This document shows, one piece after another, positions 1 to 52,357 of a stretch of 64,000 nucleotides of DNA. The position numbers and the translations under genes are program-made. The first letter of the stretch is position 1. Each line of letters begins with the position of its first letter. The notes below the pieces were generated by a model. That model was not told the DNA's origin and did no database searches. It saw only the letters and a program-made list of their open reading frames with translations. The DNA is from Anadara kagoshimensis. Taxonomy: Eukaryota > Mollusca > Bivalvia > Arcoida > Arcidae. The stretch spans positions 33,694,245-33,758,244 of the forward strand of contig CM037862.1 in NCBI GenBank assembly GCA_021292105.1, given 5' to 3'.

Positions 1-3000
1 ACTACGGTAAAACACAGCAATCATCACAGAAAATACTATGTATACATAGTACAGTAAAACACAGCAATCATCACAGAAAATACTATGTATAGATAGTACA
101 GTAAAACAGCAATCATCACAGAAAATACTATGTATATATAGTACAGTAAAACACAGCAATCATCACAGAAAATACTATGTATATATAGTACAGTAAAACA
201 CAGCAATCATCACAGAAAATACTATGTATAGATAGTACAGTAAAACACAGCAATCATCACAGAAAATACTATGTTATATAGTACAGTAAAACACAGCAAT
301 CATCACAGAAAATACTATGTATATATAGTACAGTAAAACACAGCAATCATCACAGAAAATACTATGTATATATAGTACAGTAAAACACAGCAATCATCAC
401 AGAAAATACTATGTATATATAGTACAGTAAAACACAGCAATCATCACAGAAAATACTATGTATATATAGTACAGTAAAACACAGCAATCATCACAGAAAA
501 TACTATGTATACATAGTACAGTAAAACACAACAATCATCACAGAAAATACTATGTATATATAGTACAGTAAAACACAGCAATCATCACAGAAATACTATG
601 TATATATACTACGGTAAAACACAGCAATCATCACAGAAAATACTATGTATATATAGTACAGTAAAACACAACAATCATCACAGAAAATACTATGTATACA
701 TAGTACAGTAAAACACAGCAATCATCACAGAAAATACTATGTATATATAGTACAGTAAAACACAGCAATCATCACAGAAAATACTATGTATATATACTAC
801 GGTAAAACACAGCAATCATCACAGAAAATACTATGTATATATAGTACAGTAAACACAACAATCATCACAGAAAATACTATGTATACATAGTACAGTAAAA
901 CACAGCAATCATCACAGAAAATACTATGTATATATAGTACAGTAAACACAGCAATCATCACAGAAAATACTATGTATATATAGTACAGTAAAACATAGCA
1001 ATCATCACAGAAAATACTATGTATACATAGTACAGTAAAACATAGCAATCATCACAGAAAATACTATGTATATTAGTACAGTAAACACAGCAATCATCAC
1101 AGAAAATACTATGTATATATAGTACAGTAAAACATAGCAATCATCACAGAAATACTATGTATACATAGTACAGTAAAACACAGCAATCATCACAGAAAAT
1201 ACTATGTATACATAGTACAGTAAAACACAGCAATCATCACAGAAAATACTATGTATACATAGTACAGTAAAACACAGCAATCATCACAGAAAATACTATG
1301 TATACATAGTACAGTAAAACACAGCAATCCACAGAAAATACTATGTATACATAATACAGTAAACACAGCAATCATCACAGAAAATACTATGTATATAGTA
1401 CAGTAAAACACAGCAATCATCACAGAAAATACTATGTATACATAGTACAGTAAAACACAGCAATCATCACAGAAAAATACTATGTATACATAGTACAGTA
1501 AAACACAGCAATCATCACAGAAAATACTATGTATACATAGTACAGTAAAACACAGCATCATCACAGAAAATACTATGTATATATAGTACAGTAAAACATA
1601 GCAATCATCACAGAAAATACTATGTATATATAGTACAGTAAAACACAGCAATCATCACAGAAAATACTATGTATATATAGTACGGTAAAACACAGCAATC
1701 ATCACAGAAAATACTATGTATACATAGTACAGTAAAACACAGCAATCATCACAGAAAATACTATGTATACATAATACAGTAAACACAGCAATCATCACAG
1801 AAAACACTATGTATAGATAGTACAGTAAAACACAGCAATCATCACAGAAAACTATGTATATATAGTACAGTAAAACACAGCAATCATCACAGAAAATACT
1901 ATGTATACATAGTACAGTAAAACACAGCAATCATCACAGAAAATACTATGTATACATAATACAGTAAAACACAGCAATCATCACAGAAAACACTATGTAT
2001 ACATAGTACAGTAAAACACAGCAATCATCACAGAAAATACTATGTATATATAGTACAGTAAAACATAGCAATCATCACAGAAAATACTATGTATATATAG
2101 TACAGTAAAACATAGCAATCATCACAGAAAATACTATGTATATATAGTACAGTAAAAACACAGCAATCATCACAGAAAATACTATGTATACATAGTACAG
2201 TAAAACACAGCAATCATCACAGAAAATACTATGTATACATAATACAGTAAAACACAGCAATCATCACAGAAAACACTATGTATAGATAGTACAGTAAAAC
2301 ACAGCAATCATCACAGAAAATACTATGTATACATAGTACAGTAAAACACAGCAATCATCACAGAAAACACTATGTATAGATAGTACAGTAAAACACAGCA
2401 ATCATCACAGAAAATACTATGTATACATAGTACAGTAAAACACAGCAATCATCACAGAAAATACTATGTATACATAGTACAGTAAAACACAGCAATCATC
2501 ACAGAAAATACTATGTATACATAGTACAGTAAAACACAGCAATCATCACAGAAAACACTATGTATAGATAGTACAGTAAAACACAGCAATCATCACAGAA
2601 AATACTATGTATACATAGTACAGTAAAACACAGCAATCATCACAGAAAATACTATGTATATATAGTACAGTAAAACACAGCAATCATCACAGAAAATACT
2701 ATGTATACATAGTACAGTAAAACACAACAATCATCACAGAAATACTATGTATATATAGTACAGTAAAACACAGCAATCATCACAGAAAATACTATGTATA
2801 CATAGTACAGTAAAACACAGCAATCATCACAGAAAATACTATTTATACATAGTACAGTAAAACACAGCAATCATCACAGAAAATACTATGTATACATAGT
2901 ACAGTAAAACACAGCAATCATCACAGAAAATACTATGTATACATAGTACAGTAAAACACAGCAATCATCACAGAAAACACTATGTATAGATAGTACAGTA

Positions 3001-6000
3001 AAACACAGCAATCATCACAGAAAATACTATGTATACATAGTACAGTAAAACAGCAATCATCACAGAAAATACTATGTATACATAGTACAGTAAAACACAA
3101 GCAATCATCACAGAAAATACTATGTATACATAGTACAGTAAAACACAGCAATCATCACAGAAAACATGTATAGATAGTACAGTAAAACACAGCAATCATC
3201 ACAGAAAATACTATGTATACATAGTACAGTAAAACACAGCAATCATCACAGAAAATACTATGTATACATAGTACAGTAAAACAGCAATCATCACAGAAAA
3301 TACTATGTATATAGTACAGTAAAACACAGCAATCATCACAGAAAATACTATGTATACATAGTACAGTAAAACACAGCAATCATCACAGAAAATACTATGT
3401 ATACATAGTACAGTAAAACACAGCAATCATCACAGAAAATACTATGTATACATAGTACGGTAAAACACAGCAATCATCACAGAAAATACTATGTATACAT
3501 AGTACAGTAAAACACAACAATCATCACAGAAAATACTATGTATACATAGTACAGTAAAACACAGCAATCATCACAGAAAATACTTTGTATATATAGTACA
3601 GTAAAACACAGCAATCATCACAGAAATATACTATGTATATATAGTACAGTAAAACATAGCAATCATCACAGAAAATACTATGTATATAGTACAGTAAAAC
3701 ATAGCAATCATCACAGAAAATACTATGTATACATAGTACAGTAAAACACAGCAATCATCACAGAAAATACTATGTATATATAGTACAGTAAAACATAGCA
3801 ATCATCACAGAAAATACTATGTACTACATAGTACAGTAAAACACAGCAATCATCACAGAAAATACTATGTATACATAGTACAGTAAAACACAGCAATCAT
3901 CACAGAAAACACTATGTATACATAGTACAGTAAAAACAGCAATCATCACAGAAAAATACTATGTATATATAGTACAGTAAAACATAGCAATCATCACAGA
4001 AAATACTATGTATACATAGTACAGTAAAAACACAGCAATCATCACAGAAAATACTATGTATACATAGTACGGTAAAACACAGCAATCATCACAGAAAATA
4101 CTATGTATATATAGTACAGTAAAACACAGCAATCATCACAGAAAATACTATGTATATATAGTACAGTAAAACACAGCAATCATCACAGAAATACTATGTA
4201 TACATAGTACAGTAAAACACAACAATCATCACAGAAAATACTATGTATACATAGTACAGTAAAACACAGCAATCATCACAGAAAATACTATGTATACATA
4301 GTACAGTAAAACACAGCAATCATCACAGAAAATACTATGTATATATAGTACAGTAAAACACAGCAATCATCACAGAAAATACTATGTATATATAGTACAG
4401 TAAAAACAGCAATCATCACAGAAAATACTATGTATACATAGTACGGTAAAACACAGCAATCATCACAGAAAATACTATGTATACATAGTACAGTAAAACA
4501 CAGCAATCATCACAGAAAATACTATGTATACATAGTACGGTAAAACACAGCAATCATCACAGAAAATACTATGTATACATAGTACAGTAAAACACAGCAA
4601 TCATCACAGAAAATACTATGTATACATAGTACAGTAAAACACAGCAATCATCACAGAAAATACTATGTATATATAGTACAGTAAAACACACGCAATCATC
4701 ACAGAAAATACTATGTATACATAGTACAGTAAAACACAGCAATCATCACAGAAAATACTATGTATACATAGTACAGTAAAACACAGCATCATCACAGAAA
4801 ATACTATGTATACATAGTACAGTAAAACACAGCAATCATCACAGAAAATACTATGTATACATAGTACAGTAAAACACAGCAATCATCACAGAAAATACTA
4901 TGTATACATAGTACAGTAAACACAGCAATCATCACAGAAAATACTATGTATACATAATACAGTAAAACACAGCAATCATCACAGAAAACACTATGTATAG
5001 ATAGTACAGTAAAACACAGCAATCATCACAGAAAATACTATGTATACATAGTACAGTAAAACACAGCAATCATCACAGAAAATACTATGTATACATAGTA
5101 CAGTAAAACACAGCAATCATCACAGAAAATACTATGTATACATAGTACAGTAAAACACAGCAATCATCACAGAAATACTATGTATACATAGTACAGTAAA
5201 ACACAGCAATCATCACAGAAAACACTATGTATAGATAGTACAGTAAAACACAGCAATCATCACAGAAAATACTATGTATACATAGTACAGTAAAACACAG
5301 CAATCATCACAGAAAATACTATGTATACATAGTACAGTAAAACACAGCAATCATCACAGAAAATACTATGTATATATAGTACAGTAAAACACAGCAATCA
5401 TCACAGAAAATACTATGTATACATAGTACAGTAAAACACAGCAATCATCACAGAAAATACTATGTATACATAGTACAGTAAAACACAGCAATCATCACAG
5501 AAAATACTATGTATATATAGTACAGTAAAACATAGCAATCATCACAGAAAATACTATGTATACATAGTACAGTAAAACACAGCAATCATCACAGAAAATA
5601 CTATGTATATATAGTACAGTAAAACATAGCAATCATCACAGAAAATACTATGTATACATAGTACAGTAAAACACAGCAATCATCACAGAAAATACTATGT
5701 ATACATAGTACAGTAAAACACAGCAATCATCACAGAAAATACTATGTATACATAGTACAGTAAAACACAGCAATCATCACAGAAAATACTATGTATACAT
5801 AGTACAGTAAAACACAGCAATCATCACAGAAAATACTATGTATACATAGTACAGTAAAACACAGCAATCATCACAGAAAATACTATGTATATATAGTACA
5901 GTAAAACACAGCAATCATCACAGAAAATACTATGTATATATAGTACAGTAAAACACAGCAATCATCACAGAAAATACTATGTATACATAGTACAGTAAAA

Positions 6001-7482
6001 CACAGCAATCATCACAGAAAATACTATGTATACATAGTACCGTAAAACACAGCAATCATCACAGAAAATACTATGTATACATAGTACGGTAAAACACAGC
6101 AATCATCACAGAAAATACTATGTATATATAGTACAGTAAAACACAGCAATCATCACAGAAAATACTATGTATACATAGTACAGTAAAACACAGCAATCAT
6201 CACAGAAAATACTATGTATACATAGTACCGTAAAAACACAGCAATCATCACAGAAAATACTATGTATACATAGTACGGTAAAACACAGCAATCATCACAG
6301 AAAATACTATGTATATATAGTACAGTAAAACACAGCAATCATCACAGAAAATACTATGTATACATAGTACCGTAAAACACAGCAATCATCACAGAAAATA
6401 CTATGTATACATAGTACGGTAAAACACAGCAATCATCACAGAAAATACTATGTATATATAGTACAGTAAAACACAGCAATCATCACAGAAAATACTATGT
6501 ATATATAGTACAGTAAAACACAGCAATCATCACAGAAAATACTATGTATATATAGTACGGTAAAACACAGCAATCATCACAGAAAATACTATGTATATAT
6601 AGTACAGTAAAACACAGCAATCATCACAGAAAATACTATGTATACATAGTACAGTAAAACACAGCAATCATCACAGAAAATACTATGTATACATAGTACC
6701 GTAAAACACAGCAATCATCACAGAAAATACTATGTATACATAGTACGGTAAAACACAGCAATCATCACAGAAAATACTATGTATATATAGTACAGTAAAA
6801 CATAGCAATCATCACAGAAAATACTATGTATACATAGTACAGTAAAACACAGCAATCATCACAGAAAATACTATGTATACATAGTACAGTAAAACACAGC
6901 AATCATCACAGAAAATACTATGTATACATAGTACAGTAAAACACAGCAATCATCACAGAAAATACTATGTATACATAGTACGGTAAAACACAGCAATCAT
7001 CACAGAAAATACTATGTATAGATAGTACAGTAAAACACAGCAATCATCACAGAAAATACTATGTATACATAGTACAGTAAAACACAGCAATCATCACAGA
7101 AAATACTATGTATACATAGTACGGTAAAACACAGCAATCATCACAGAAAATACTATGTATACATAGTACAGTAAAACACAGCAATCATCACAGAAAATAC
7201 TTTGTATACATAGTACAGTAAAACACAGCAATCATCACAGAAAATACTATGTATATATAGTACAGTAAAACATAGCAATCATCACAGAAAATACTATGTA
7301 TATATAGTACAGTAAAACATAGCAATCATCACAGAAAATACTATGTATATATAGTACAGTAAAACACAGCAATCATCACAGAAAATACTATGTATACATA
7401 GTACAGTAAAACACAGCAATCATCACAGAAAATACTATGTATACATAGTACAGTAAAACACAGCAATCATCACAGAAAATAC
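1..7482. repeat. 47-bp satellite array, first block
   Basis: Head-to-tail copies (about 159) of a 47-bp unit, AT-rich, reading from 'acagtaaaacacagcaatc' through 'atcacagaaaa' to a dyad. In the commonest form the dyad is the perfect 18-bp palindrome TACTATGTATACATAGTA. Main variants change one base in the palindrome (TATATA or TAGATA for TATACA) or the first bases of the unit (acag, acgg, accg). The block runs off the left edge of the window. Since 47 is not a multiple of three, minus-strand reading cycles through all frames and the short peptides (FTVLCIHSIFCDDC type) end at the TAG in the dyad. They are artefacts, not genes. Roughly positions 840-5000 contain many one-base gains and losses (gtaaacac, aaaaacagc, cagaaatact); 5000-7480 is much cleaner. 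Confidence 0.97.
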
Positions 7483-7484
7483 TA

Positions 7485-7945
7485 CACAGGTAAAAGTGCT
7501 ATGCACGAAAATCATGCGTTGAATTTTTCGCATGATTTTCGCATGAAAAACGTGTCAAATTCATACGTATTTTGTGAAAGCGAATTTCGCATGAAAAAAT
7601 TATGCGATTTACGTGTATAATTTCGTGCGAAATTTGTACGAAAATTCTGCACACGAAAATCGCATGAATTTTTCAATTCGTGCGAATATCTCATGAAAAA
7701 TTTATGCGAATTCTCACGAAAAATTATGGTAAAATATTAACCATATCAATGTAAAAATATCCATTATATTAAAAATCACTTGGAATTATAAACATTTTGG
7801 TGAATAATTCCATTGTGGAATTTATAAAAGACATCACATGAAATTTTAAGTCATGTGAATATCGCACGAAAATTTCATGCGAAAATATCATGAAAAATTC
7901 ATGCAAAAATGTCACGAAAATTTTGGGTGAAATTCTCATGCAATT
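7485..7945 (+). repeat. left terminal/subterminal repeat region of the 8.8-kb element
   Basis: About 460 bp of short degenerate motifs related to GCACGAAAAT and CGCATGAAAAA, in both orientations, with many CpG and CATG steps inside otherwise AT-rich DNA. The first ~32 bases are the terminal inverted repeat. Motifs are dense at 7500-7735 and recur at 7850-7935 after an ordinary AT-rich gap. Dense subterminal motifs are known in several DNA transposon families as transposase-binding sites; that role is inferred here. A 60-codon minus-strand frame at 7512-7694 is a by-product of the repeats. Confidence 0.75.
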
Positions 7946-8880
7946 GTAACAGCTTTTTTTATTTTAATTAATAATAAACCCAGAGAATTTCTTCATTTGA
8001 AAATTCAAAGAACATTAGAACCTTTCAGGGCCAAAACATCCTATCCTGAAGATTACATTCAACTTTTGTAAAGTACAAATCATAGCACTATTGCATATTT
8101 AACCAAATATAGTGTTATCACCCTAAAATGTTAGAAAAATCAGATAAAACATACGAGTCAGTACATGCAGTGGGTGTCATTTTATTTCCACATAAGATTT
8201 TGCACTCAAAGGCATAGTATAAAGATAATTTGATTGATGTTTGGTAACTAGCAATGTTGGTCCTGGATTTACATGGAACTGTCAGTAATAGTAATGTATA
8301 TTCATGTGCACAACTACTTAAAATGAGGCCCATGGAACTTAAAATACTAGCATTGATGGTTTGGTTTACATGGGACTGTCAACAATGTATATTGTGTGAA
8401 TAACTACTTAAAATGGGGTTTTTGTAACAAAATAGCTTCCATCTTCCAAACAACAATGTTGCTAATGCTTAAATGCAGTTGGAATTTGAAATCCATTGAG
8501 CTTAAGCTGTTGAGGCTCTCTTTATAAGACCTTTTCCACTGAATAAGTTACTTGAATTAACAGTGATCATGTTTTTTTAAGATTTGACACAATTATTATA
8601 TCTTCTGTCTATTTTTCCATTTCTAAGTGTCACCACATTTTGTAGTTGGCAGGAAGTCAACAATACGGATGTAAAATATGGAGTTGGTAAACCGTTCAGT
8701 GTTCCGGAACAAATCATGGTGATTTGAGTCAGTTTCAATTTTAACCCTCTTGATAACTTGGATGATAAGTGTGATTCATATGAAGACAAGAAAAAAATTA
8801 CTTTCCTAATATTTGGTATTTCAAATCTTACTAATGAAAAGTAAATAATTTAAAATAATTCCTTATACATGTAACACGAA
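7946..8880. other. AT-rich spacer, no gene seen
   Basis: Unique-looking AT-rich DNA inside the 8.8-kb element. A short passage resembling 'ggatttacatgg(a/g)actgtca...aatgtatatt' occurs twice (about 8265-8305 and 8360-8395) with 'actacttaaaatg(a/g)gg' after each, so a diverged direct duplication of roughly 95 bp is present. Open frames (60-71 codons) have no recognisable domain. Confidence 0.5.
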
Positions 8881-8884
8881 AGGG

Positions 8885-9080
8885 GGAATTCATTGGTAAA
8901 TCAGGACTCAAACATGTGACGCTTACCATATACTAGCAGAATGCTCCAAGTACTGTCTGAGCAACCCAGCCACCTGTCAAGACCAGAGTCCCACTTTCCC
9001 CCTTCATTTCCTTGTTTAGACTACCTGTCATGAATTGAAACCAGCCCGAGACCAACCTATTGCTCTACCACTTCCCAGGG
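8885..9080 (-). repeat. tRNA-derived SINE-like sequence, possibly two tRNA-like heads
   Basis: On the minus strand, 8895-8975 reads GGTGGCTGGGTTGCTCAGAC ... GTTTGAGTCCTG ATTTACC. This gives an A-box-like and a B-box-like promoter element, and the 5' GGTGGCT can pair with the 3' ATTTACC at six of seven positions if G-U pairs are allowed. Just upstream (9030-9078) a second GTGGTAGAGCAATAGG ... GGTTTCAATTCATGAC pair resembles another degraded A/B-box set. The anticodon arm is not tRNA-like, so a functional tRNA gene is unlikely. A SINE or tRNA pseudogene fits better. Confidence 0.45.
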
Positions 9081-9143
9081 TCAGAATACATTGATCTAGC
9101 TATTACTACCACAAAGTTGTGAATTTTAAATTTTGCAAACAGT

Positions 9144-9159
9144 ATTTATTTATTTATGT

Positions 9160-9203
<44 letters not shown>

Positions 9204-9248
9204 TTAAATATTATTATGGTCTTGAGAAAATTTATTTCACCACATAAA

Positions 9249-9285
<37 letters not shown>

Positions 9286-9288
9286 ATC
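9144..9288. repeat. inverted tetranucleotide microsatellites (ATTT)n and (AAAT)n
   Basis: A run of about fifteen TTTA/ATTT repeats (9144-9206) is followed after ~40 bp by a run of AAAT repeats (9245-9288). The two are reverse complements and could fold into one long AT hairpin with a loop containing 'ggtcttgagaaaatttatttcacc'. Confidence 0.85.
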
Positions 9289-9417
9289 ATTGCATAGTAC
9301 TATATATAATGTACAGTAAAAGATACTACAGTAATCTATGTGCATATTCATTTAAAGTCATTGTAAGCAGGTATGATTTAATTTCCCATTAGGAAAAGGT
9401 GCTCTTTATTTTCTCCA

Positions 9418-9458
9418 CAGTAATAATAATAATAATAATAATAATGATAATAATAATG
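9418..9458. repeat. (AAT)n microsatellite
   Basis: About thirteen TAA/AAT triplets with one GAT interruption. On the minus strand it gives the poly-isoleucine tract of a spurious 60-codon frame. Confidence 0.9.
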
Positions 9459-9589
9459 CTCAATACATTGTAATACAATGAAGCAGACATCATAAAGGTA
9501 CATAGACAGAGCTGGTGCTCCTGACACTTACAGGAACTACATATAACAATAACAACAAGAAGCCTGATCATGTGACATTAGATCATGTG

Positions 9590-10934
9590 ACATGATGGCA
9601 ACACTTGCAGTTTACAAGGATTGGAACTTCATTTGGCTAAAAACAAACTTGGAACATAAAATCGGTAAATATTTTGAGCCAGTAACAAAGGATATAAGAC
9701 CAGGAGGAATATTCATACAAATGTTTTGCTTGTCTTGCACTGAATCCAACAAAAATAATCATGCTAGGCCGGTGCAGTGCCAGATGAATTTTAGCAGCAG
9801 ACGATTAGACAACATGGTGAATGAAATGGTAGGCTACTAGGCATAAGGCTGAAGATTAGCAAGAACACAGGCATAGATAAAAGCAACAGAAAGATGAAAG
9901 AAAGAAGAAAATTTGGTGAGTTGAATCAAGTAAATGAATTTCAAGTGTAAAATAGAGTATTGGTTCACAAAATCCAAACACAAAATTGGCATTTACAGCA
10001 TATTCAAAACATTTTACCTTGACAATGAAACTCTAAATATGGAAGCAAATAAAGTAAAATTTGATTGGTATCATTCATCAGCTGTTTCACAAGTTATATT
10101 TCCAGTAGAAATAGATCTACATGTATTTTTAGAAAAGTGCTAGATCTATCAAGAACTTTAGTGGGAGGGGAAGGGGACAATGTAGGCTACATTGTAGCCC
10201 AGAAATCCTTTGCCTAAATGGTTAACATAATAACCCCACAATGAGCAATTATAGTCGCAGAGTAACAAATATCTTCTATTAGGACCCCTCATTATTCTCC
10301 TATACACTGCTATACAAAGTCCAAAAACAAAGTTCAATATTTTGTTACTTTGCATGAAAAAAATATATTTACTCTTTGCAACTTTGGACAATACACCCAA
10401 ACTCTAATGTAGAGAAGCATGGTCACCCATCCAGCTGCTGAGCACACATGTCATTGCTTAACTTTCAGTGTTTAACAAGAAACACAATTACAATTTTTCA
10501 AATTTACCCATAGTCACTCGTCCAGTAGAAGCAGCCCATATCCTTCCTATTGCTACACTAACATTTTCAATGGAAATTGAATTCTTTCTGTGCTTACAAT
10601 TTTATCACCACATGAAAAATAAGTTAAATAACAGGTATGCATAACTACCAGTACCAGAAGGAATGCAACAACTTTGACTGGTAATGGTAATGGTCTAGGT
10701 ATATATTTCTCATTTTCTTGCTTTTATCTTAATAAACTTAAAGTTAAACTTGAAATTTCAATTAAACCCACTTGTTTCCATTTTTTCAATGCGGCATTGT
10801 CATTCACAATGCAAAATTGATGTTACTTCAACATAGGTTATGACATCACAAGAATTTGTAGACATGACACCATTAGTTAATGGTAGATTTAATCTCAATA
10901 GTCAACATTTTGCATTTAAAAGATTATAAGTATT
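9590..10934. other. spacer without a recognised gene
   Basis: Two short plus-strand frames (9592-9840, 82 codons; 9934-10143, 69 codons) and one minus-strand frame (10158-10400, 80 codons) exist. None shows a known motif, a convincing splice context or a signal peptide, and their lengths are near chance for this composition. The direct repeat GATCATGTGACAT at 9566-9594 precedes the first. Confidence 0.5.
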
Positions 10935-12640
10935 TCACTTCTATTGAGACTGTGAGTCCTGACTCATGGGTTGATGGAGTGAAGTAATGGCATTTGTACC
11001 CAAGTCAAGATTATTTCACCTATAGTATCAAGATTAAACCTGGATGGTGTTTGACATTTCATTTGATTCTTTAACTTATATTGACAAGATCAGTTGTGTA
11101 ATGCCTAATGGCGAAGTGGAGTTTTTGGTGTTTAGCAAATATTTTAATTTAAAAGTCAAGATATTTATTTTCATTTATATCGAGACATTCAGTTCTGGGA
11201 TGGTTGAATAATGGTGTTATGTGCCTAAATCAAGATTCTTTCACTTATAAAGATATGGCCAGTTTTGGATGATGTTTTATGCCCCAGAAAACATTATTTT
11301 ACTTATATTGAGATGGTCAGATGGTATGGTGGATTAATGATGTCTTAAACCTGGTTGAGATTCTTTCACTCATATAGAGACAGTCAGTTCAGGGATATAG
11401 TGGCGTGGAGTAGTGGTGTTTACACGCAGACAACATTTTTCCACATATCAAGAATTAGATGGTCAGTTCTGGGATGGAAGAGTGAAATAATTATGTTTTA
11501 TTCTTGGTCAAGATTCTTTCACTTATATTGAGACAGTCAGTTCTGTGATCATAGGGTGGAATAATGATTTTTTATGCCTTGTCAAGATTCTTGCACTTAT
11601 ATTGAGACAGTCAGTTCTGGGATTATAGAGTGGAGTTATGATGTTTTATTCCTGGTCAAGATTCTTGCACTTATATTGAGAGAGTCAGTTCTGGGATCAT
11701 AGGGTGAAATAATGTTTTTTGATGCCTTGTCAAGATTCTTGCACTTATATTGAGACAGTGAGTTCTGTGATTATAGAGTGGAGTTATGATGTTTTAGACC
11801 TGGTCAAGATTCTTTCACTTATATTGAGACAGTCAGTTCTGGGATCATAGGGTGAAATAATGTTTTTTATGCCTTGTCAAGATTCTTGCACTTATATTGA
11901 GACAGTCAGTTCTGGGATTATAGAGTGAAGTTATGATGTTTTAGACCTGGTCAAGATTCTTTCACTTATATTGAGACAGTCAGTTCTGGGATCATAGGGT
12001 GAAATAATGTTTTTTATGCCTTGTCAAGTATTAGACAGTCAGTTCTGGGATTATAGAGTGAAGTTATGATGTTTTAGACCTGGTCAAGATTATTTCACTT
12101 ATATTGAGAAGTCAGTTCTGGATTGTAGAGTGAATTATGATGTTTTATGCCTGGTCAAGTTTCTTGCACTTATATCGAAACGGTCAGTTCTGCATTTAGA
12201 GTGGAGTTATGATGTTTAGTCTTGGTCAAGTTTTTTTTTTCACTATATCAACAGTCAGTTCTGGATTATAGAGTGAGTTATGATGTTTTATGTTGTGACA
12301 AGATTCTTTCACTTATATTGAGACAGTCAGTTCTGGATCATAGAGTGAAATTATGATGTTTTATGTTGGGACAAGATTCTTTCACTTGTATCGAGACAGT
12401 CAGTTCTGAGATAGTGGAGTAGAGTAATGGTGTTTACACCCCAGATAACATTCTTTCACTTATATCAAGATGGTCAGTTCTGCCATGGGGGAGAGGAGTA
12501 ATGATGTTTTATGTCCCAGACAAGATTTTTTCACTTAATTGAGATGATCAATCTGGGTTGGAAGAGAAATTGTGTTTTACACTCATCAAATTTGACAATT
12601 CCTGGATGGTGGAGTGTAGTAACATTAATAGTGTTTTACA
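10935..12640. repeat. 74-bp degenerate minisatellite
   Basis: About 22 diverged units of roughly 74 bp. The core of each is 'cttatattgagacagtcag' then 'ttctggg(a/t)tatagagtg', followed by 'ttatgatgttttatgcctgg' and 'tcaagattctt'. The middle (11480-12110) is most uniform, and two alternating subtypes are visible there: one ends 'gatcatagggtgaaataatg', the other 'gattatagagtggagttatg'. This suggests a 148-bp dimer. The edges decay gradually. No open frame persists because of indels. Confidence 0.9.
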
Positions 12641-12659
12641 CACAAAAAGATTTTTAGAT

Positions 12660-13566
12660 CACTAAAGCCAAAGGCTCAGATGAGCTATTGTCATTGATCT
12701 TGATCGTCCGTATGTAAGCTTTTCACATTTTAATAAACTACTCCAAAACTACTGGCCCAAATTTGATGATATTTAGGAGTAATAATGCCTAGGTAAAGGG
12801 GTTTCAGATTTGCACATATGAAGGGGTTGTGTCTCTTTGGGCACCATATAGGAGGAAATTGTTAAAATCATCTCCTGAACATACAGATATTTCATGTAAA
12901 ACATATTCTTAGGGCACCTAGTTTCAGATTTGCACAAATGGTAGCTGTAGGAGCTAAAATTGGGATATGGCAAGGAACTTTCCGGTAAGAGGGGATTTTT
13001 AAAACTAAAGGATTTCTCATTATATCTGGAAAACTATAAACTTTTTGTATAGGTATATGTATATTAATTAGTATATTGTAAGTAATGGCATAATGATAAT
13101 TTTGATATGAATAAAGGCCATGGGTTCAAAGGTCAAGGTTATAGATGCAACACATACTAAAATCGTTAATTATCTCAAAAAGTATAAACTTATTGTATAG
13201 TGAATGGGCATGTATACTAGAATATTGTAGGTATTAGCCTAACAATCCGTGTGAAATATAAATTAATGTTATATGTTCAATGGTCAAGGTCAAATGCAAA
13301 CAATTACTGAAATAGCCTAGTTTTTTTTTCACATTAGTTCTTTTATTTTTACTATTTTTTAGTTGTTTATGAATATACTTCAGTCGGACCGTAGATTCTT
13401 TAGATGTAGCATACTTAGGATAACATATAATTAATTTGCAAAAATCTTTGCATATTTTGCTCTAACTGCTGAAAATTTTGACATTCTCTTTAATAAACGT
13501 AATTGACCATTGAACCACTGCATGAGATACTCAGGTCAACATTAAGGCCCATGAGCCTCTTGTTTC
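12660..13566. repeat. bivalve-type interspersed repeat with imperfect inverted ends
   Basis: The left end 'cactaaagccaaaggctcag' and the right end (reverse complement 'gtgaaacaagaggctcatgg') share an imperfect terminal inverted repeat around GGCTCA. The 'aggctcatgggcc' end style is one remembered as widespread in bivalve genomes. The interior passage 12741-12860 matches, in opposite orientation, 24480-24600 ('ccaaaactactggcccaaat', 'tttcagatttgcac'). Positions 13005-13310 hold two ~150-bp diverged tandem copies marked by 'actataaactttttgtatag' and 'gtataaacttattgtatagt'. Likely a non-autonomous DNA element; the family is not named. Confidence 0.55.
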
Positions 13567-13666
13567 ACGAATGCACTTGTCAAGACAGTCGGGTCTGAGA
13601 TGAAGGAGGAAAATAGAACACCACAAGAAAACTTTAACAAGCAACTGATACACTGTCACACAAGGA

Positions 13667-13749
13667 TCTGTCAAGCAGGATTTGAACCTAAGTATTTATA
13701 GAGGTGTTGTATTTGGTAAGACAATGCCATAGACCACTTTAGTCACAAA
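13667..13749 (-). repeat. tRNA-derived SINE head or tRNA pseudogene
   Basis: On the minus strand GACTAAAGTGGTCTATGGC (A-box-like) is followed about 35 nt later by GGTTCAAATCCTGC, a near-consensus B box. No proper anticodon stem or matched acceptor stem was found, so this is more likely a polymerase III-promoted SINE head than a functional tRNA. Confidence 0.5.
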
Positions 13750-14600
13750 GAGGTGAAGGAAACAGGAGTCTCCTGAAGTGCACATGTAACTCATTTTAAA
13801 CATGGATAAGTAGGTTTTGAATAAATGATCAACACCAATGCAGCCTGGCATTTATTTTCCATAACCTCTTAAGATATATTGGTCTTACTACTTAAAAAGT
13901 TAATTGAAATATATATATTTTTTTAGGATAAAGAATAATCTACACGAAGGAAGAGGCACCAAGTTATATTTTTGGTCTAAAAGTCAGATCAAATGGTTTT
14001 CCAACCCAGTGTTATTCTGTTTAGTCAGCTTTTTATAAGTGGTAAGTTTTAATTTTACACAAGTTATTTTAGAGTGAACATCATTGACTTCCATACAAAG
14101 TGAAATAAGTTTTATTGTAAAATAAGTGGGATAGTTGGTCCATTTAATAAATCTAAAACCACACCATAGGCATTTCCTACAGTACCTTTCCAGAAGTGGA
14201 AGTTTTACATTCAGTGAACATTTTCTATATTTGTTTGTAATCTTTGTTCCATCTTGTGTGCTTCAATTTCTAACCTTTTATCACCAAAGTATCTTGCAAG
14301 CCAACGTTTGCTTCAATCGACCAAGTATTTTCAAAAAAGATTTTGAAAGATTTTGGTTATAAAAATACAACTTATTTGCATATTGGGAGATATTTCACAC
14401 AAACTAAACAAAATTATGGAAAAACTGCTACAACAGTTTAATACTCCCAGTTCTATCTTCTATGTTTAAAATTGAAATAAAATCAGTACATTTATAATGG
14501 CGTAATGGTAATTATATACATGCAAACATCATGGTAAAAACATGCTCTCTGCTTGTGATTATTTGAACCTAATCCAGATCAAAAAGACCATTTTACTATG
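13750..14600. other. AT-rich spacer, no gene seen
   Basis: A 75-codon plus-strand frame (14135-14362) has a hydrophobic, phenylalanine-rich translation without a recognisable domain. Nothing else supported. Confidence 0.45.
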
Positions 14601-14609
14601 GATTCAGAG

Positions 14610-14611
<2 letters not shown>

Positions 14612-14640
<29 letters not shown>
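14612..14640. repeat. (AT)n microsatellite
   Basis: Uninterrupted AT dinucleotides, about 14 copies. They explain the IYIYIY tract in a spurious 86-codon frame. Confidence 0.95.
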
Positions 14641-14643
<3 letters not shown>

Positions 14644-14719
14644 CCCTATGTTACATGTCTCTGACTACACATGAAATATTGTTTACACTAATAAGATTTA
14701 TGTATCAGATTGTATCAAC

Positions 14720-15140
14720 TCTACCACTTAATATTAGCAATCTAATGTTTTTGAGGTACTATTTGAACTGGGACCACTTGACCTTTTTTACCTGGAAGTG
14801 TTTAATGAGACCCCAGTTTAATGGAGTTATGCCCCTTTTTACATTCAGATTTATTTAACACAATATGTGAACTTTGCGACCTAAACCAATTTGAAATTCA
14901 ATGGGCATTTCAATAATTTGTTATGACATGATCATCATAAAATTATGATGCTGCTCAAATATTTAATGGAGTCATGTCACTTTTCCACTTTGATTTATTT
15001 TTACACAATATAGGCACCTAATGACCTTTACCATGTTTAGTCTTACAGTTTGATTGGTGTGTGTATTTGAATTTGGCACAGTGAATTAAGCGGTACTAAT
15101 TTTGTAAAGATTCTTAACCTTGACCTTTATTGAAGGTCAA
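14720..15140. repeat. degenerate ~147-bp tandem duplication of bivalve-repeat type
   Basis: 'taatggagttatgccccttt' at about 14819 and 'taatggagtcatgtcacttt' at about 14966 are each followed by 'ttgatttattt..acacaatat' versions, giving two diverged copies ~147 bp apart. 'Ggagttatgcccctt' is a phrase remembered from bivalve interspersed repeats. Confidence 0.5.
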
Positions 15141-15867
15141 AGTAACCTAAAGTGGGGAAACTTTTAACAGTTCTATGCCTTTGCTCATGTTGAATGAATA
15201 CAGGTATCTATATCAACATTATTTTTAAATTATATATGTTTCAATTCATTTACAGATACTGAGATGGACAGCACCTGTGTACAGTAACATTGAAATATTC
15301 CATCAGAAGTGGATCATAGCCAAAAATGAAGATATTTTGCACCAAAATTGATATTTAAGAAACAGACTGAAGAAAAATTTTGATAAGTTTTTCTGTGAAA
15401 TGACGTTTTACCACATCAGGACATATTTCTGACTATACTGATATAGTGAAAAACATTTAGTGTGATATATTCATTATTACTTTTTCTATTTATGCATCAG
15501 CATACAGTTTTACTAAAGTTTTGTTTGTACAACTACTACAGCAAGAATGTAAGAAAGTAACTTTAATGAAATATGTTTATAATTCATGTAATTAATATAT
15601 AAAAAGTTGTAGAAATTCTGTTGCCTCTTTTATTCTATTGGTCCCTTAAAAATGTTGATGTAAAGAAGTCCTAAAATGTTTTATGCAATTATTTATGAGC
15701 ACAATTTTATTGTATTTTCAGTTTGCACTGTAATCTGAAATGAAACGAAGAAAGTAAACTAAAGCAATGTGCTGTTATATCTCCCATTTGAACAGACAGA
15801 TTCTGTCATCACAATTGAAATTTTGTGAAAAATCTACATTGAAAATAATGCTCTTTTTGTATAAGTA
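15141..15867. other. AT-rich spacer, no gene seen
   Basis: No domain-bearing frame, RNA gene or repeat structure was recognised here. Confidence 0.45.
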
Positions 15868-16281
15868 TCACGAGATTTGTTTCGCACGATTTTCGTGCGT
15901 GTGCTCATTTAAAATTGTTTATAATACATTCATGGATTTCACTCAATTTTCATACGAATTTCGTGCGAAAAATTATTATGATGCGAAATTCATACATTTT
16001 TCTCACGTATTTCATGAGATGTTTTCGCATGGTTTTTGTGCGTGTGCTCCTTTCAGCTTCTTTACGCACGAAATTTTTTCACGAAATTCGCACGATTTTT
16101 ATACGTTTTTCGTGCGAAAATCCTGATCGTGCGAAATTGATGCGTTTTTCGCACAAATTTCATGAGATTTTTTCTCACAATTTTCATGCGTGTGCTCCTT
16201 TCAGCTTTTTTACGCACAAAAATTTGATACAAATTTCGTGAAAATTTTTCATGATTTTCGTGCGTAGCACTTTTACCTGTG
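15868..16281 (-). repeat. right terminal/subterminal repeat region of the 8.8-kb element
   Basis: Mirror counterpart of the left end, with dense CG-containing motifs (TTTCGTGCGAAAA, TTTTCGCAC, CATGAGAT). It contains an internal ~155-bp duplication: 'gcgtgtgctcctttcagctt' occurs at about 16040 and 16190. Two overlapping plus-strand frames (119 and 108 codons, His/Phe/Cys rich) and a 114-codon minus-strand frame are by-products. The outermost ~32 bases are the terminal inverted repeat shared with the left end. Confidence 0.75.
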
Positions 16282-16283
16282 TA

Positions 16284-19200
16284 TGTATACATAGTACAGT
16301 AAAACACAGCAATCATCACAGAAAATACTATGTATACATAGTACAGTAAAACACAGCAATCATCACAGAAAATACTATGTATACATAGTACAGTAAAACA
16401 CAACAATCATCACAGAAAATACTATGTATACATAGTACCGTAAAACACAGCAATCATCACAGAAAATACTATGTATACATAGTACAGTAAAACACAGCAA
16501 TCATCACAGAAAATACTATGTATACATAGTACAGTAAAACACAGCAATCATCACAGAAAATACTATGTATATATAGTACAGTAAAACACAGCAATCATCA
16601 CAGAAAATACTATGTATATATAGTACGGTAAAACACAGCAATCATCACAGAAAATACTATGTATATATAGTACAGTAAAACACAGCAATCATCACAGAAA
16701 ATACTATGTATACATAGTACAGTAAAACACAACAATCATCACAGAAAATACTATGTATACATAGTACAGTAAAACACAGCAATCATCACAGAAAATACTA
16801 TGTATATATAGTACAGTAAAACACAGCAATCCATAGTACGGTAAAACACAGCAATCATCACAGAAAATACTATGTATACATAGTACAGTAAAACACAGCA
16901 ATCATCACAGAAAATACTATGTATACATAGTACAGTAAAACACAGCAATCATCACAGAAAATACTATGTATACATAGTACAGTAAAACACAGCAATCATC
17001 ACAGAAAATACTATGTATATATAGTACAGTAAAACATAACAATCATCACAGAAAATACTATGTATATATAGTACAGTAAAACACAGCAATCATCACAGAA
17101 AATACTATGTATATATACTACGGTAAAACACAGCAATCATCACAGAAAATACTATGTATACATAGTACAGTAAAACACAGCAATCATCACAGAAAACACT
17201 ATGTATAGATAGTACAGTAAAACACAGCAATCATCACAGAAAATACTATGTATACATAGTACAGTAAAACACAGCAATCATCACAGAAAATACTATGTAT
17301 ACATAGTACAGTAAAACACAGCAATCATCAAAGAAAATACTATGTATATATAGTACAGTAAAACACAGCAATCATCACAGAAAATACTATGTATATATAG
17401 TACAGTAAAACACAGCAATCATCACAGAAAATACTATGTATATATAGTACAGTAAAACACAGCAATCATCACAGAAAATACTATGTATATATAGTACAGT
17501 AAAACACAGCAATCATCACAGAAAATACTATGTATATATAGTACAGTAAAACACAGCAATCATCACAGAAAATACTATGTATACATAGTACAGTAAAACA
17601 CAGCAATCATCACAGAAAATACTATGTATACATAATACAGTAAAACACAGCAATCATCACAGAAAATACTATGTATACATAGTACAGTAAAACACAGCAA
17701 TCATCACAGAAAATACTATGTATATATAGTACAGTAAAACACAGCAATCATCACAGAAAATACTATGTATACATAGTACAGTAAAACACAGCAATCATCA
17801 CAGAAAATACTATGTATACATAGTACGGTAAAACACAGCAATCATCACAGAAAATACTATTTATACATAGTACAGTAAAACACAGCAATCATCACAGAAA
17901 ATACTATGTATATATAGTACAGTAAAACACAGCAATCATCACAGAAAATACTATGAATATATAGTACAGTAAAACACAGCAATCATCACAGAAAATACTA
18001 TGTATATATAGTACAGTAAAACACAGCAATCGATAGTACGGTAAAACACAGCAATCATCACAGAAAATACTATGTATATATAGTACAGTAAAACACAGCA
18101 ATCCATAGTACGGTAAAACACAGCAATCATCACAGAAAATACTATGTATACATAGTACAGTAAAACACAGCAATCATAACAGAAAATACTATGTATATAT
18201 AGTACAGTAAAACACAGCAATCATCACAGAAAATACTATGTATATATAGTACAGTAAAACACAGCAATCATCACAGAAAATACTATGTATATATAGTACA
18301 GTAAAACACAGCAATCATCACAGAAAATACTATGTATATATAGTACAGTAAAACACAGCAATCATCACAGAAAATACTATGTATATATAGTACAGTAAAA
18401 CACAGCAATCATCACAGAAAATACTATGTATATATAGTACAGTAAAACACAGCAATCCATAGTACGGTAAAACACAGCAATCATCACAGAAAATACTATG
18501 TATATATAGTACAGTAAAACACAGCAATCCATAGTACGGTAAAACACAGCAATCATCACAGAAAATACTATGTATACATAGTACAGTAAAACACAGCAAT
18601 CATCACAGAAAATACTATGTATATATACTACGGTAAAACACAGCAATCATCACAGAAAATACTATGTATACATAGTACAGTAAAACACAACAATCATCAC
18701 AGAAAATACTATGTATACATAGTACAGTAAAACACAGCAATCATCACAGAAAATACTATGTATATATAGTACAGTAAAACACAGCAATCCATAGTACGGT
18801 AAAACACAGCAATCATCACAGAAAATACTATGTATACATAGTACAGTAAAACACAGCAATCATCACAGAAAATACTATGTATATATACTACGGTAAAACA
18901 CAGCAATCATCACAGAAAATACTATGTATACATAGTACAGTAAAACACAACAATCATCACAGAAAATACTATGTATACATAGTACAGTAAAACACAACAA
19001 TCATCACAGAAAATACTATGTATATATAGTACAGTAAAACACAGCAATCATCACAGAAAATACTATGTATACATAGTACGGTAAAACACAGCAATCATCA
19101 CAGAAAATACTATGTATACATAGTACAGTAAAACACAGCAATCATCACAGAAAATACTATGTATATATAGTACAGTAAAACATAACAATCATCACAGAAA

Positions 19201-21694
19201 ATACTATGTATATATAGTACAGTAAAACACAGCAATCATCACAGAAAATACTATGTATATATACTACGGTAAAACACAGCAATCATCACAGAAAATACTA
19301 TGTATACATAGTACAGTAAAACACAGCAATCATCACAGAAAACACTATGTATAGATAGTACAGTAAAACACAGCAATCATCACAGAAAATACTATGTATA
19401 CATAGTACAGTAAAACACAGCAATCATCACAGAAAATACTATGTATACATAGTACAGTAAAACACAGCAATCATCACAGAAAATACTATGTATACATAGT
19501 ACAGTAAAACACAGCAATCATCACAGAAAATACTATGTATAGATAGTACAGTAAAACACAGCAATCATCACAGAAAATACTATGTATATATAGTACAGTA
19601 AAACACAGCAATCATCACAGAAAATACTATGTATATATAGTACAGTAAAACACAGCAATCATCACAGAAAATACTATGTATATATAGTACAGTAAAACAC
19701 AGCAATCATCACAGAAAATACTATGTATATATAGTACAGTAAAACACAGCAATCATCACAGAAAATACTATGTATATATAGTACAGTAAAACACAGCAAT
19801 CATCACAGAAAATACTATGTATACATAGTACAGTAAAACACAGCAATCATCACAGAAAATACTATGTATATATAGTACAGTAAAACACAGCAATCATCAC
19901 AGAAAATACTATGAATATATAGTACAGTAAAACACAGCAATCATCACAGAAAATACTATGTATATATAGTACAGTAAAACACAGCAATCATCACAGAAAA
20001 TACTATGAATATATAGTACAGTAAAACACAGCAATCATCACAGAAAATACTATGTATATATAGTACAGTAAAACACAGCAATCGATAGTACGGTAAAACA
20101 CAGCAATCATCACAGAAAATACTATGTATATATAGTACAGTAAAACACAGCAATCCATAGTACGGTAAAACACAGCAATCATCACAGAAAATACTATGTA
20201 TATATAGTACAGTAAAACACAGCAATCCATAGTACGGTAAAACACAGCAATCATCACAGAAAATACTATGTATACATAGTACAGTAAAACACAGCAATCA
20301 TCACAGAAAATACTATGTATATATACTACGGTAAAACACAGCAATCATCACAGAAAATACTATGTATATATAGTACAGTAAAACACAGCAATCATCACAG
20401 AAAATACTATGTATATATAGTACAGTAAAACACAGCAATCATCACAGAAAATACTATGTATATATAGTACAGTAAAACACAGCAATCATCACAGAAAATA
20501 CTATGTATACATAGTACAGTAAAACACAGCAATCATCACAGAAAATACTATGTATATATACTACGGTAAAACACAGCAATCATCACAGAAAATACTATGT
20601 ATACATAGTACAGTAAAACACAGCAATCATCACAGAAAATACTATGTATATATAGTACAGTAAAACACAGCAATCATCACAGAAAATACTATGTATATAT
20701 AGTACAGTAAAACACAGCAATCATCACAGAAAATACTATGTATATATAGTACAGTAAAACACAGCAATCATCACAGAAAATACTATGTATAGATAGTACA
20801 GTAAAACACAGCAATCATCACAGAAAATACTATGTATAGATAGTACAGTAAAACACAGCAATCATCACAGAAAATACTATGTATATATAGTACAGTAAAA
20901 CACAGCAATCATCACAGAAAATACTATGTATATATAGTACAGTAAAACACAGCAATCATCACAGAAAATACTATGTATACATAGTACAGTAAAACACAGC
21001 AATCATCACAGAAAATACTATGTATATATAGTACAGTAAAACACAGCAATCATCACAGAAAATACTATGTATACATAGTACAGTAAAACACAGCAATCAT
21101 CACAGAAAATACTATGTATACATAGTACAGTAAAACACAGCAATCATCACAGAAAATACTATGTATACATAGTACAGTAAAACACAGCAATCATCACAGA
21201 AAATACTATGTATACATAGTACGGTAAAACACAGCAATCATCACAGAAAATACTATGTATACATAGTACAGTAAAACACAGCAATCATCACAGAAAATAC
21301 TTTGTATATATAGTACAGTAAAACACAGCAATCATCACAGAAAATACTATGTATATATAGTACAGTAAAACATAGCAATCATCACAGAAAATACTATGTA
21401 TATATAGTACAGTAAAACATAGCAATCATCACAGAAAATACTATGTATATATAGTACAGTAAAACATAGCAATCATCACAGAAAATACTATGTATATATA
21501 GTACAGTAAAACATAGCAATCATCACAGAAAATACTATGTATATATAGTACAGTAAAACACAGCAATCATCACAGAAAATACTATGTATACATAGTACAG
21601 TAAAACACAGCAATCATCACAGAAAATACTATGTATATATAGTACAGTAAAACACAGCAATCATCACAGAAAATACTATGGATACATAGTACAG
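16284..21694. repeat. 47-bp satellite array, second block
   Basis: About 115 units of the same 47-bp sequence as positions 1-7482, in the same orientation and phase, interrupted only by the 8.8-kb element. This block has few indels. It carries a shortened ~25-bp unit in which 'cagcaatc' joins directly to 'catagtacgg' or 'gatagtacgg' (for example 16830, 18031, 18104, 18457, 20083, 20155). These shortened units cluster, showing local amplification of a multi-unit module. The array ends at 'gatacatagtacag' and passes into unrelated repeat DNA. Confidence 0.97.
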
Positions 21695-21705
21695 TCATTG
21701 TATGG

Positions 21706-23147: not shown

Positions 23148-23900
23148 TTTACTCTTCAGTACTTAGCAAGTGTTATATTAGATGTAGACATTTCTAATGA
23201 CACTCATACCATAAGCAAAATGAAAACAGAATGTTAAAAACTTCTGATGTAAAAACAAACATATCTATACTTACAATATCTAATGTCTAGCTATTGTACA
23301 CAAGTCATTTTTGCATTTTATTAATTTTTAGAGGCCCCTATACAGTTTTCTCCTTTGAAGCCCAACAGCCACTAGTTGTTTAAATCAAATAATACTTGCC
23401 CTAAGGATTTTTCATCTAAAATGTCATAGGTACATTAGCTGTTTATGATTTTCAAATAATTAACAGTTTTTAAACTGATAAATTAAGTGAAATGAAAGCA
23501 TGAACTTTCATCAGGGATGTGGGGCCGGGTGCTACAGAGGGGCAAGAACCTCCTGTTTAGCTTAGCTACACCTCCCATGTGTGTAATCAAAATTGAGTAA
23601 GAAGATAACATGGGACTATTGACACATCAAATATATCAACATATCATACTTATCAACAATATTGTGATGAGGGCCATAAAACTTTTTGATAAGCCTAGAT
23701 TTAAAGGCATCATATTTTTGCATCAACTATTTATTTGTACGCAGCTTGCTTCATTGTATAAATTTAGTTTCTGCAAGTGTGAACAAGCTCTACTAATTAG
23801 TGTATTATGAATTAATACACCATAAGCAGGAGAAGCAGGTATATTGCTGCACAGAAAAGTTGACATTAGAAAAGTAGAAGTCATCTGAGCTTTAGTTAAG
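23148..23900. other. spacer, no gene seen
   Basis: AT-rich. A 66-codon plus-strand frame (23610-23810) has no recognised motif. Positions 23290-23356 match 24375-24441 as a diverged direct repeat ('attgtacacaagtcattttt ... cctatacagttttct' against 'attgtacatgagtcaatttt ... ccttctacagtttcct'), ~1.1 kb apart. Confidence 0.5.
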
Positions 23901-23902
23901 AA

Positions 23903-24051
23903 ATAACACTCTATTTGAGTGTATTCATTCGGTATTATGAATGAGAGTCAGGAATAGCATATTCAATGAACTGTGACGCAGTTCATGTTAAATATGCTAT
24001 TCCTGACTCTCATTCATAATACCAAATGAATACACTCAAATAGAATGTTAT
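23903..24051. repeat. 149-bp near-perfect inverted repeat (hairpin/MITE-like)
   Basis: Arms 23903-23963 and 23991-24051 are reverse complements over 61 bp with two mismatches. The 27-bp centre itself contains the stem ATGAACTG / CAGTTCAT around TGACG, so almost the whole segment can fold into one long hairpin. Flanks (taaga / tctta) extend the pairing imperfectly. No clear target duplication was found. It could be a foldback or MITE copy, or the palindrome centre of a larger element. Confidence 0.85.
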
Positions 24052-24214
24052 CTCTTATATTTACAATTATAAAAAAATATTGATAGCATGTTTATCGCTA
24101 CAATAATTTGTTTTATTCAAGATTCCGACAAACATACAGGATTGATGGAACAGCCTTGCTCCAAATAAGGATAGTTACATCGGGACTTAACTTGGATGCT
24201 GGCCAATCAAACAA

Positions 24215-51252: not shown

Positions 51253-51410
51253 AGAATCCTACACCAGTAACAGGGTAAGACAGAGATATCTCAAACTCGG
51301 ATGAATATTTTCAATGTCCAGAACTCGCTAAGGCTCGTTCTGGACAGGAAAATATTCATCCTAAATGTTTGAGATATCTCTGTCTTACCCTGTTACCTGT
51401 GTAAGATTCT
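51253..51410. repeat. 158-bp inverted repeat (hairpin)
   Basis: The left arm begins AGAATCCTACACCAGTAACA; the reverse complement of the right arm begins AGAATCTTACACAGGTAACA. Both continue with GGGTAAGACAGAGATATCTC and 'aaac(t/a)'. The arms converge on a centre where GTCCAGAAC and GTTCTGGAC also pair. It can fold end to end with a few mismatches. MITE-like; no clear target duplication. Confidence 0.8.
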
Positions 51411-51417
51411 ATTAATA

Positions 51418-52130
51418 ATGCCATCAGCACAATGCACAGGCAAAATATTTGCACCTTAACATATAGCTGACAACAGCTTGTTATATGTGAAATATTTTTG
51501 ATTGGCTTGGGACGTTAACATCATTGCTCAACTATTAATACAAAAAGTTTATAATTTTCTAGATATTTAGCAAAAGCACAAAGATAAACAATTGGGTCAT
51601 TACCTTCATTTTTACCTTATTTTGAAGGTTATCAAAACTGGAAACCTCATATCTGCACAAATAGTTAAGTTATAACAATTTGAAGCCATTTTATGTTTTC
51701 TAAATTTAATGCAAAAATACCTATTTTATTTGTTCTGTCCAAATTTCACAAAGTGAACAAACTATAGGCTAAAGACCCTAGGGAAGATAAATATGCAAAT
51801 ATTGTGTCAGTTTTTTTCTCACATCATTATTTTGGAGAAGAACAATGAACAAAAAATCTGCCCCATGAATATCTCTGACCAAGTTTCAATGAAATCTGCC
51901 TGGTGGTTTCAATGGAAAAATTGCTAAATATGTATTAACGTGCACACACATAACCATGCACACACTATGCTATACAAGAAGCCATCCTTACATTTGGTCA
52001 GGTGAGAGCTGAGAGTTGAGTTAAGTAATGATGTTAAATGTTCCAAGAAAGAGTTTTTCACTTATATCTAGATATCACCAGCTATAGGCAAAGGTGCAGA
52101 AATTTTGCCTGTGCATTGTGCTGATGGCAT
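51418..52130. mobile_element. 713-bp TA-flanked inverted-repeat element (MITE-like)
   Basis: The left end ATGCCATCAGCACAATGCAC and the reverse complement of the right end are identical for the first ~30 bases (continuing AGGCAAAAT). Similarity persists to about 75 bp with patches such as TATAGCTG and GTGAAA. TA flanks both ends (51416-51417, 52131-52132). The interior is AT-rich without a coding frame. Likely a non-autonomous cut-and-paste transposon; the family is not assigned. Confidence 0.75.
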
Positions 52131-52132
52131 TA

Positions 52133-52357
52133 TACAGCAGCGTTCTTTATTGCCACATTTACTGTGACATAGGACCTTGTTTATTTTAAGTTCCCATCTA
52201 AAAGAACTGTGACTTTATTTTGTAATGTCGAATGCTTAGTGAAAGAACAGTCACTACCCACTTTCAAGTCTTTGGTTAGACCAGGTCGGAGTTTGAACCC
52301 ACTACCTCCCACTTAGGGAGGGAGCACTCTGCCAACTGGGCTACCACATTGGTTCAT
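52133..52357 (-). repeat. tRNA-derived SINE
   Basis: On the minus strand the head reads TGTGGTAGCCCAGTTGGCAG (A box) ... GTGGGTTCAAACTCCGACC (B box), spaced as in a tRNA. A body follows with 'ctttcactaagcattcgaca' and a tail ending 'gtggcaataaagaacgctgc'. The tail style recalls bivalve SINEs of the Meta/V-domain type (from memory). Its 3' end abuts the 713-bp element at 52132. The lack of a matched acceptor stem argues against a functional tRNA gene. Confidence 0.75.

Follow-up and report, generated by a model that had tools for sequence, protein, structure and literature searches.

Duplication of a TA dinucleotide upon insertion is a mark of Tc1/mariner transposons, while repeated short motifs near the ends are typical of EnSpm/CACTA elements. 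Among abundant transposase-less elements, the best-known ones are short, and miniature inverted-repeat transposable elements (MITEs) reach at most several hundred bp. According to the sections of Kojima 2025 (PMC12730594) available to us, most CMCT elements have CA..TG termini and target duplications of 2-5 bp, EnSpm elements have CAC..GTG termini and a 3-bp duplication, and TA-duplicating EnSpm-like elements of rust fungi go by the name ESTA, which was drawn from families carrying a TET/JBP gene (families lacking the gene are given in Data S1). In the accessible part of another source, the Pack-CACTA elements of plants are described as carrying captured sequence (PMC8903248). Here, we describe a 64,000-nt stretch of the Anadara kagoshimensis genome (the window; C6:33694245-33758244 in its source assembly), in which an element with inverted ends, at ~C6:33.70 Mb, interrupts an array of a 47-bp satellite. 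We consider it likely that this element is a large non-autonomous transposon of the CMC (CACTA/EnSpm-like) type, one that duplicates TA and would be moved in trans.

The position of the element within a satellite makes it an unusually clean proof of TA duplication. The 17-nt sequence CACAGGTAAAAGTGCTA reads inward at both ends with no mismatch (7485-7501 on the forward strand and 16265-16281 on the reverse), and these two ends are its only matches in the window at up to 3 mismatches. Under the same tolerance, shuffled controls yield a mean of 0.26 matches, with two or more in 2 of 100 shuffles. When the flanks are joined with one TA dropped, they form an uninterrupted run of 47-bp satellite units, and because the satellite phase is kept in this way, the TA is a true target duplication and does not belong to the ends. 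The first-pass annotation of this DNA had reported identical inward ends, TA flanks and a satellite unit restored in phase, all of which the end search and the joined flanks bear out; the inverted repeat that it described is present as well but is longer than it stated, at 34 nt and 97% with the TAs included (7483-7516 versus 16250-16283). By-eye inspection of the coded satellite units distinguished no empty paralogous site.

The same ends recur throughout the assembly from which the window is taken (1,115,223,567 bases in 36 contigs), where the exact 17-nt end has 81 copies (44 forward and 37 reverse) compared to 0 for the control. When each forward end is paired by hand with a reverse neighbor, 46 ends resolve into 23 inverted pairs, of which 19 are large (3,874 to 26,609 bp) and 4 are small (180-251 bp). 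All 23 pairs have TA on both sides, and only ~0.04 forward-then-reverse neighbors within 30 kb are expected by chance. A possible further pair on C8, with ends 92.7 kb apart, was left out of this count. Five pairs on C14 and two of the small pairs on C6 share their flanks and are duplicated loci, and thus, the 23 pairs represent ~18 insertion sites. The five C14 copies (C14:35.317-35.494 Mb) are of one internally deleted element, lie 41-45 kb apart and have identical 12-bp flanks (one with a 1-base difference); they seem to be a tandem segmental duplication that carried the transposon along. The remaining ends comprise 34 that are unpaired and one extra end within the 180-bp copy. Among the 13 unpaired ends examined, all retain at least 29 of the 32 positions of the terminal inverted repeat (TIR), and 11 have TA outside. 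Matches to the 17-mer in viral (13 stretches) and prokaryote (20) contigs, one in each, are read as chance, as agreement with the 32-position TIR is limited to 18-24 positions in all 33 and blastn at 1e-3 aligns none of them to the ends or the core.

Between the ends, 18 of the 19 large pairs (3.9-17.0 kb, the window copy included) hold one core sequence in whole or in part, which makes it a family core and not a one-off capture. Several of the unpaired ends also adjoin core sequence. Three unique pieces of the core are 89.7-99.1% identical to the window copy wherever the piece is present, with the second piece absent from C3_5.2, the second and third absent from the five C14 copies and the first two only partially present in C7_40.5. 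In C7_33.9, identity to the window copy is 98.7, 99.1 and 98.9% over the three pieces but only 93.8% over another stretch. Copies also vary in minisatellite length, nested elements and deletions, with internally deleted copies of 3.9-6.1 kb in addition to the four minis. One 17-kb copy (C14:72.61 Mb) contains a nested insertion at element positions 2995-10600 with open reading frames (ORFs) of 696, 548 and 292 aa, which by eye is LINE-like.

To count core-bearing loci, four probes were used (window 13650-15050, 9300-10880, 15070-15830 and 7930-9130), with the minisatellite and 12580-13650 lying outside them. The first probe has at least 46 matches with 40 of 925 candidates scored; 13 of these matches span the whole probe at an identity of at least 95%, and each of the 13 lies at a locus that has an exact end. 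The other three have at least 43 (40 of 139 candidates scored), at least 43 (40 of 80) and at least 60 (40 of 68) matches, respectively; the long ones lie mostly at the same family loci, and many others are short dispersed repeats. By hand count from the four probes, there are about 30 core-bearing loci. Long core matches at three loci (C9:68.60, C15:14.75 and C17:36.39 Mb) have no exact end nearby. Taken with the TA-flanked pairs, this multi-copy family supports the earlier proposal of a large non-autonomous cargo transposon with paired ends elsewhere at similar spacing and with shorter, internally deleted copies.

On either side of the core is a terminal domain built of short motifs, ~440 bp long on the left and ~475 bp on the right. 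The motifs CGCACGAAA, CGTGCGAAA and CGCATGAAA have 7, 5 and 4 copies in the window, respectively, every one of them inside these two domains, as are 6 of the 7 copies of ATGCGAAA. The observed-to-expected CpG ratio is 2.26 over 7485-7950 on the left and 2.29 over 15851-16281 on the right. It drops to 0.19 in the core, and the satellite blocks (0.13 and 0.21) and three further window stretches (0.18-0.27) are similarly low. None of 6,177 sliding 450-bp windows outside the terminal domains reaches 0.75. In 15 of the 19 large copies (four of the five C14 duplicates being dropped), CpG positions in the right terminus differ between copies more often (48/937) than A/T positions (79/4608) or other C/G positions (29/1436), whereas the left terminus has no clear CpG excess (42/720 versus 203/4600 and 69/1213, respectively). 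This mutation pattern would fit methylation in the right end only, and it is plausible that the CpG-rich ends are transposase-binding, methylation-sensitive sites.

The first-pass annotation described the interior as having no recognizable transposase but a 74-bp minisatellite and microsatellites. The repeats are indeed found, along with short segments that have relatives in other parts of the window, and neither the 10 ORFs searched (best, Replitron_C with E 0.042 and 14.7 bits versus 27, followed by PilJ_Pilin with E 0.19) nor a six-frame scan (one match, E 0.077) yields a match that reaches the cut-off of its Pfam family. A sequence comparison with the PDB, run on two of the six frames, gave no match. 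The further suggestion that ordinary genome is being carried holds in part: about 720 bp can be traced outside the family, but the core is not a single piece carried once, as it is common to 18 of the 19 large pairs at ~90-99% identity. The traced segment (15096-15814, in two pieces) is ~72% identical to a locus at C18:0.19 Mb; most of it also matches C36:0.2 Mb, and C11, C33, C34 and C35 have matches that are weaker or shorter. The C18 and C36 loci are themselves related (92% over 1.7 kb) and stay alike past the point where likeness to the element ends; composition alone places the core/terminus border 7 bp away from that point. This is most simply read as a joining of host sequence to the terminal domain, with the stop in similarity as a sign of acquired host DNA, while a shared older repeat is a possible alternative. 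An array beside the C18 relative also has a 74-bp period, but its unit scores no better than chance (15.0 versus 15.1 on average over 200 shuffles), and the agreement in period is a coincidence.

For most of the core, whose origin we infer, the four probes gave no source outside the family. This, together with the movement of the core as a unit, whole or in part, in 18 paired copies, is what would be seen if the core were not captured DNA but the decayed body of a once-coding member of the same family. We regard that origin as possible but doubtful, as the six frames hold no protein domain, the CpG depletion of the core resembles that of host DNA and stands against the CpG-rich ends, and the ~720-bp segment has relatives outside the family. 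Furthermore, the five transposase exons described below have only chance-level matches (tblastn) in the 22 other paired elements.

These exons lie in the 19th large pair, a 26.6-kb copy on C3 (C3_41.2), which is the candidate partner of the window element. C3_41.2 has perfect 32-nt ends and TA flanks, and its first 32 nt agree with those of the window element with at most 1 mismatch. Beyond this, the termini of the two align over 276 bp at 95% and ~370 bp at 83%, and what C3_41.2 shares with the core is limited to the ends and general repeats. We observe exon-like ORFs with GT/AG borders inside it, one encoding a C2H2 finger (zf-H2C2_5, E 0.0002, below cut-off) and others containing FLDDTSSNKSKRW, a CPKC pair and LHWMFLG; a DDTS stretch is presumably the first catalytic site. 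CMC/EnSpm elements encode a DDE transposase with C(2)C and H(3-4)H motifs, and of these features the CPKC pair is seen here. When three exons are joined, they match Transposase_21 (CACTA/EnSpm) over 83 residues with E=7e-5, with zf-RING_4 behind at 0.034. A relative with the same ends and transposase-like exons had been anticipated from the window alone, and C3_41.2 answers to it by way of this sub-cut-off Pfam match. The six-frame scan of C3_41.2 also detects a nested LINE reverse transcriptase.

Several observations weigh against a CMC-type partner. The joined-exon match scores 22.5 bits versus the Pfam cut-off of 28.6, and the exons were joined by us. By itself, the CPKC exon is a better match to zf-RING_4 (E 0.0032) than to Transposase_21 (E 0.041), and the DDTS exon has no Pfam match; the last catalytic acid was not found. 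In six-frame Pfam scans of the whole of C3_41.2 on both strands, no transposase passes E 0.05; a split gene would account for this, but the result lends no support. Two of the transposase exons have only two copies each in the genome. At the second copy, which lies 2.1 Mb from the first, one side has an exact end, whereas the 30 kb retrieved revealed none on the other; one exon is interrupted by a stop and another is frameshifted. As 100 bp of flank are common to both copies, the two appear to represent one insertion whose locus was later duplicated. Since the core has nothing else in common with C3_41.2, descent by simple internal deletion is unsupported, and two of the 13 examined unpaired ends have no TA flank. 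Our confidence in C3_41.2 as the particular trans partner is lower than in the assignment of the window element as a whole.

If the CMC-type gene in the 26.6-kb copy were a passenger or chance neighbor, the family could belong to Tc1/mariner, of which TA duplication is the familiar mark, or to another TA-targeting group. The restriction of the transposase-like exons to one independent insertion, with a match below the Pfam cut-off, also speaks for this, but we find it improbable given that the sole transposase-like gene found between these ends is of the CMC type. No mariner-type DDE/D Pfam domain occurs in six frames, both strands included, of the window element or C3_41.2, the other paired copies having been checked for long ORFs only. 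CAC..GTG termini are present in all 23 pairs, although they are dictated by the search pattern. As described in the available sections of PMC12730594, CA..TG termini with 2-5 bp duplications fit CMCT elements, and CAC..GTG termini fit EnSpm.

Small elements with these ends (180-251 bp) do exist, and two of them might have moved jointly with the DNA between them; this composite origin appears quite unlikely, as the window has no inner copies of the ends at up to 3 mismatches and a single core is common to 18 paired copies. Although satellites are difficult to assemble, a mis-join of two satellite blocks is in effect refuted by the paired TA-flanked ends at ~17 other sites and is contradicted by the exact TA duplication and the kept satellite phase.

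Under the favored assignment to a CMC transposon moved in trans, a transposase from a C3_41.2-like element would bind the 32-nt ends common to both elements as well as the CpG-rich repeats in the outermost ~270-370 bp, cut out the passenger and join it to a TA. The core would have been assembled from sequence that has no relation to the transposase gene and is host DNA at least in part, and would then have spread as a unit while its minisatellite shifted in length and nested elements and deletions built up. We infer both the trans-mobilization and the activity of the family from sequence comparison. Long transposase-less elements with one shared core at about 30 loci offer a tangible case for studying why a large passive core persists and how host DNA enters between transposon ends, while CpG-rich ends in a CpG-poor genome raise the question of whether movement is tied to methylation.

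Table 1. Features of the element and its satellite surroundings, in window coordinates.
Feature	Position	Strand	Remarks
Element proper	7485-16281		8,797 bp
TA, left target-duplication copy	7483-7484		Removal of a single TA restores satellite phase
TA, right target-duplication copy	16282-16283		
Left TIR, 32 nt	7485-7516	+	31/32 identity to right end
Right TIR, 32 nt	16250-16281	-	
Left terminal domain, CpG-rich short repeats (CGCAYGAAA type)	7485-7923	+	Border 7923 by Markov scoring
Right terminal domain, CpG-rich short repeats	15807-16281	-	Border 15807 by composition
Core, ~7.9 kb, CpG-poor, no recognizable protein domain	7924-15806		Whole or part in 18 large paired copies including the window copy
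74-bp minisatellite in core	11155-12579	+	Aligned length differs among copies
Dispersed repeat in core	12655-13562		Short relatives of parts elsewhere in window and in 26.6-kb element; outer borders by eye
Site of ~410 bp absent from window copy and C7_33.9	15067		Present in several other copies
Core segment with ~72%-identical relatives outside family (C18:0.19 Mb, C36:0.2 Mb)	15096-15814	+	Similarity stops near terminal-domain border
Host 47-bp satellite, left of insertion	3-7484	+	
Host 47-bp satellite, right of insertion	16282-21695	+	

The satellite to the right of the insertion has a higher-order pattern (window 16573-19989), in which a run of unit variants, by eye, recurs ~2 kb apart; 1,459 bp repeat at 97.5% with an offset of 1,958, and other offsets score almost equally. 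Elsewhere in the window, ~0.7 kb between 55-bp inverted arms of 91% identity (51415-52133) is likely a further non-autonomous DNA element, and two long palindromes (23897-24057 and 51253-51413; 91% and 84% self-complementary, respectively) are likely of the foldback MITE type. Antisense ORFs at 60290-62432 resemble, by eye, a broken non-LTR retrotransposon with endonuclease and reverse transcriptase parts.

By the Repbase rule, in the part of its source available to us, non-autonomous elements are classed by the length of the duplication and the first 11 positions (PMC4455052). The window element and C3_41.2 have the same duplication length and are alike at positions 1-11, which would place them in one superfamily, with C3_41.2 itself classed solely by its sub-cut-off Transposase_21 match. 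Paper-title searches on EnSpm brought no description of this family to notice, which, as a result from titles only, is no proof of absence from print, and a literature search for CACAGGTAAAAG returned unrelated papers only. More speculatively, the family could represent an animal branch of TA-targeting, ESTA-like CMC transposons, whose main successful members would be, instead of miniature elements, transposase-less vehicles of 8-10 kb with a fixed, non-coding and partly host-derived core, mobilized via CpG-rich subterminal repeats that might make movement methylation-dependent.

Among known systems, ESTA shares with this family a TA duplication and, through the candidate in C3_41.2, a putative CMCT-like transposase, although six-frame scans of C3_41.2 reveal no TET/JBP domain at E 0.05. 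With EnSpm/CACTA, the window element has in common its CAC..GTG ends, a short duplication within the 2-3 bp of CMC/EnSpm transposons and subterminal motifs, as well as the Transposase_21-like exons in the same-ended C3_41.2; it differs in duplicating TA rather than the 3 bp reported for EnSpm in the sections available (PMC12730594), and the transposase match is below cut-off. Like the Pack-TYPE and Pack-CACTA elements, as far as the accessible part of PMC8903248 describes them, it combines CACTA-like ends and apparent chromosomal cargo with the lack of a transposase, whereas here no coding exon is identified in the core, the host is not a plant and the 7.9-kb core is common to the family. Finally, the window element resembles MITEs in being without a transposase and in having TIRs and TA, and the family includes members of 180-251 bp, but at 8,797 bp, it is 35-49 times the length of these four small copies.

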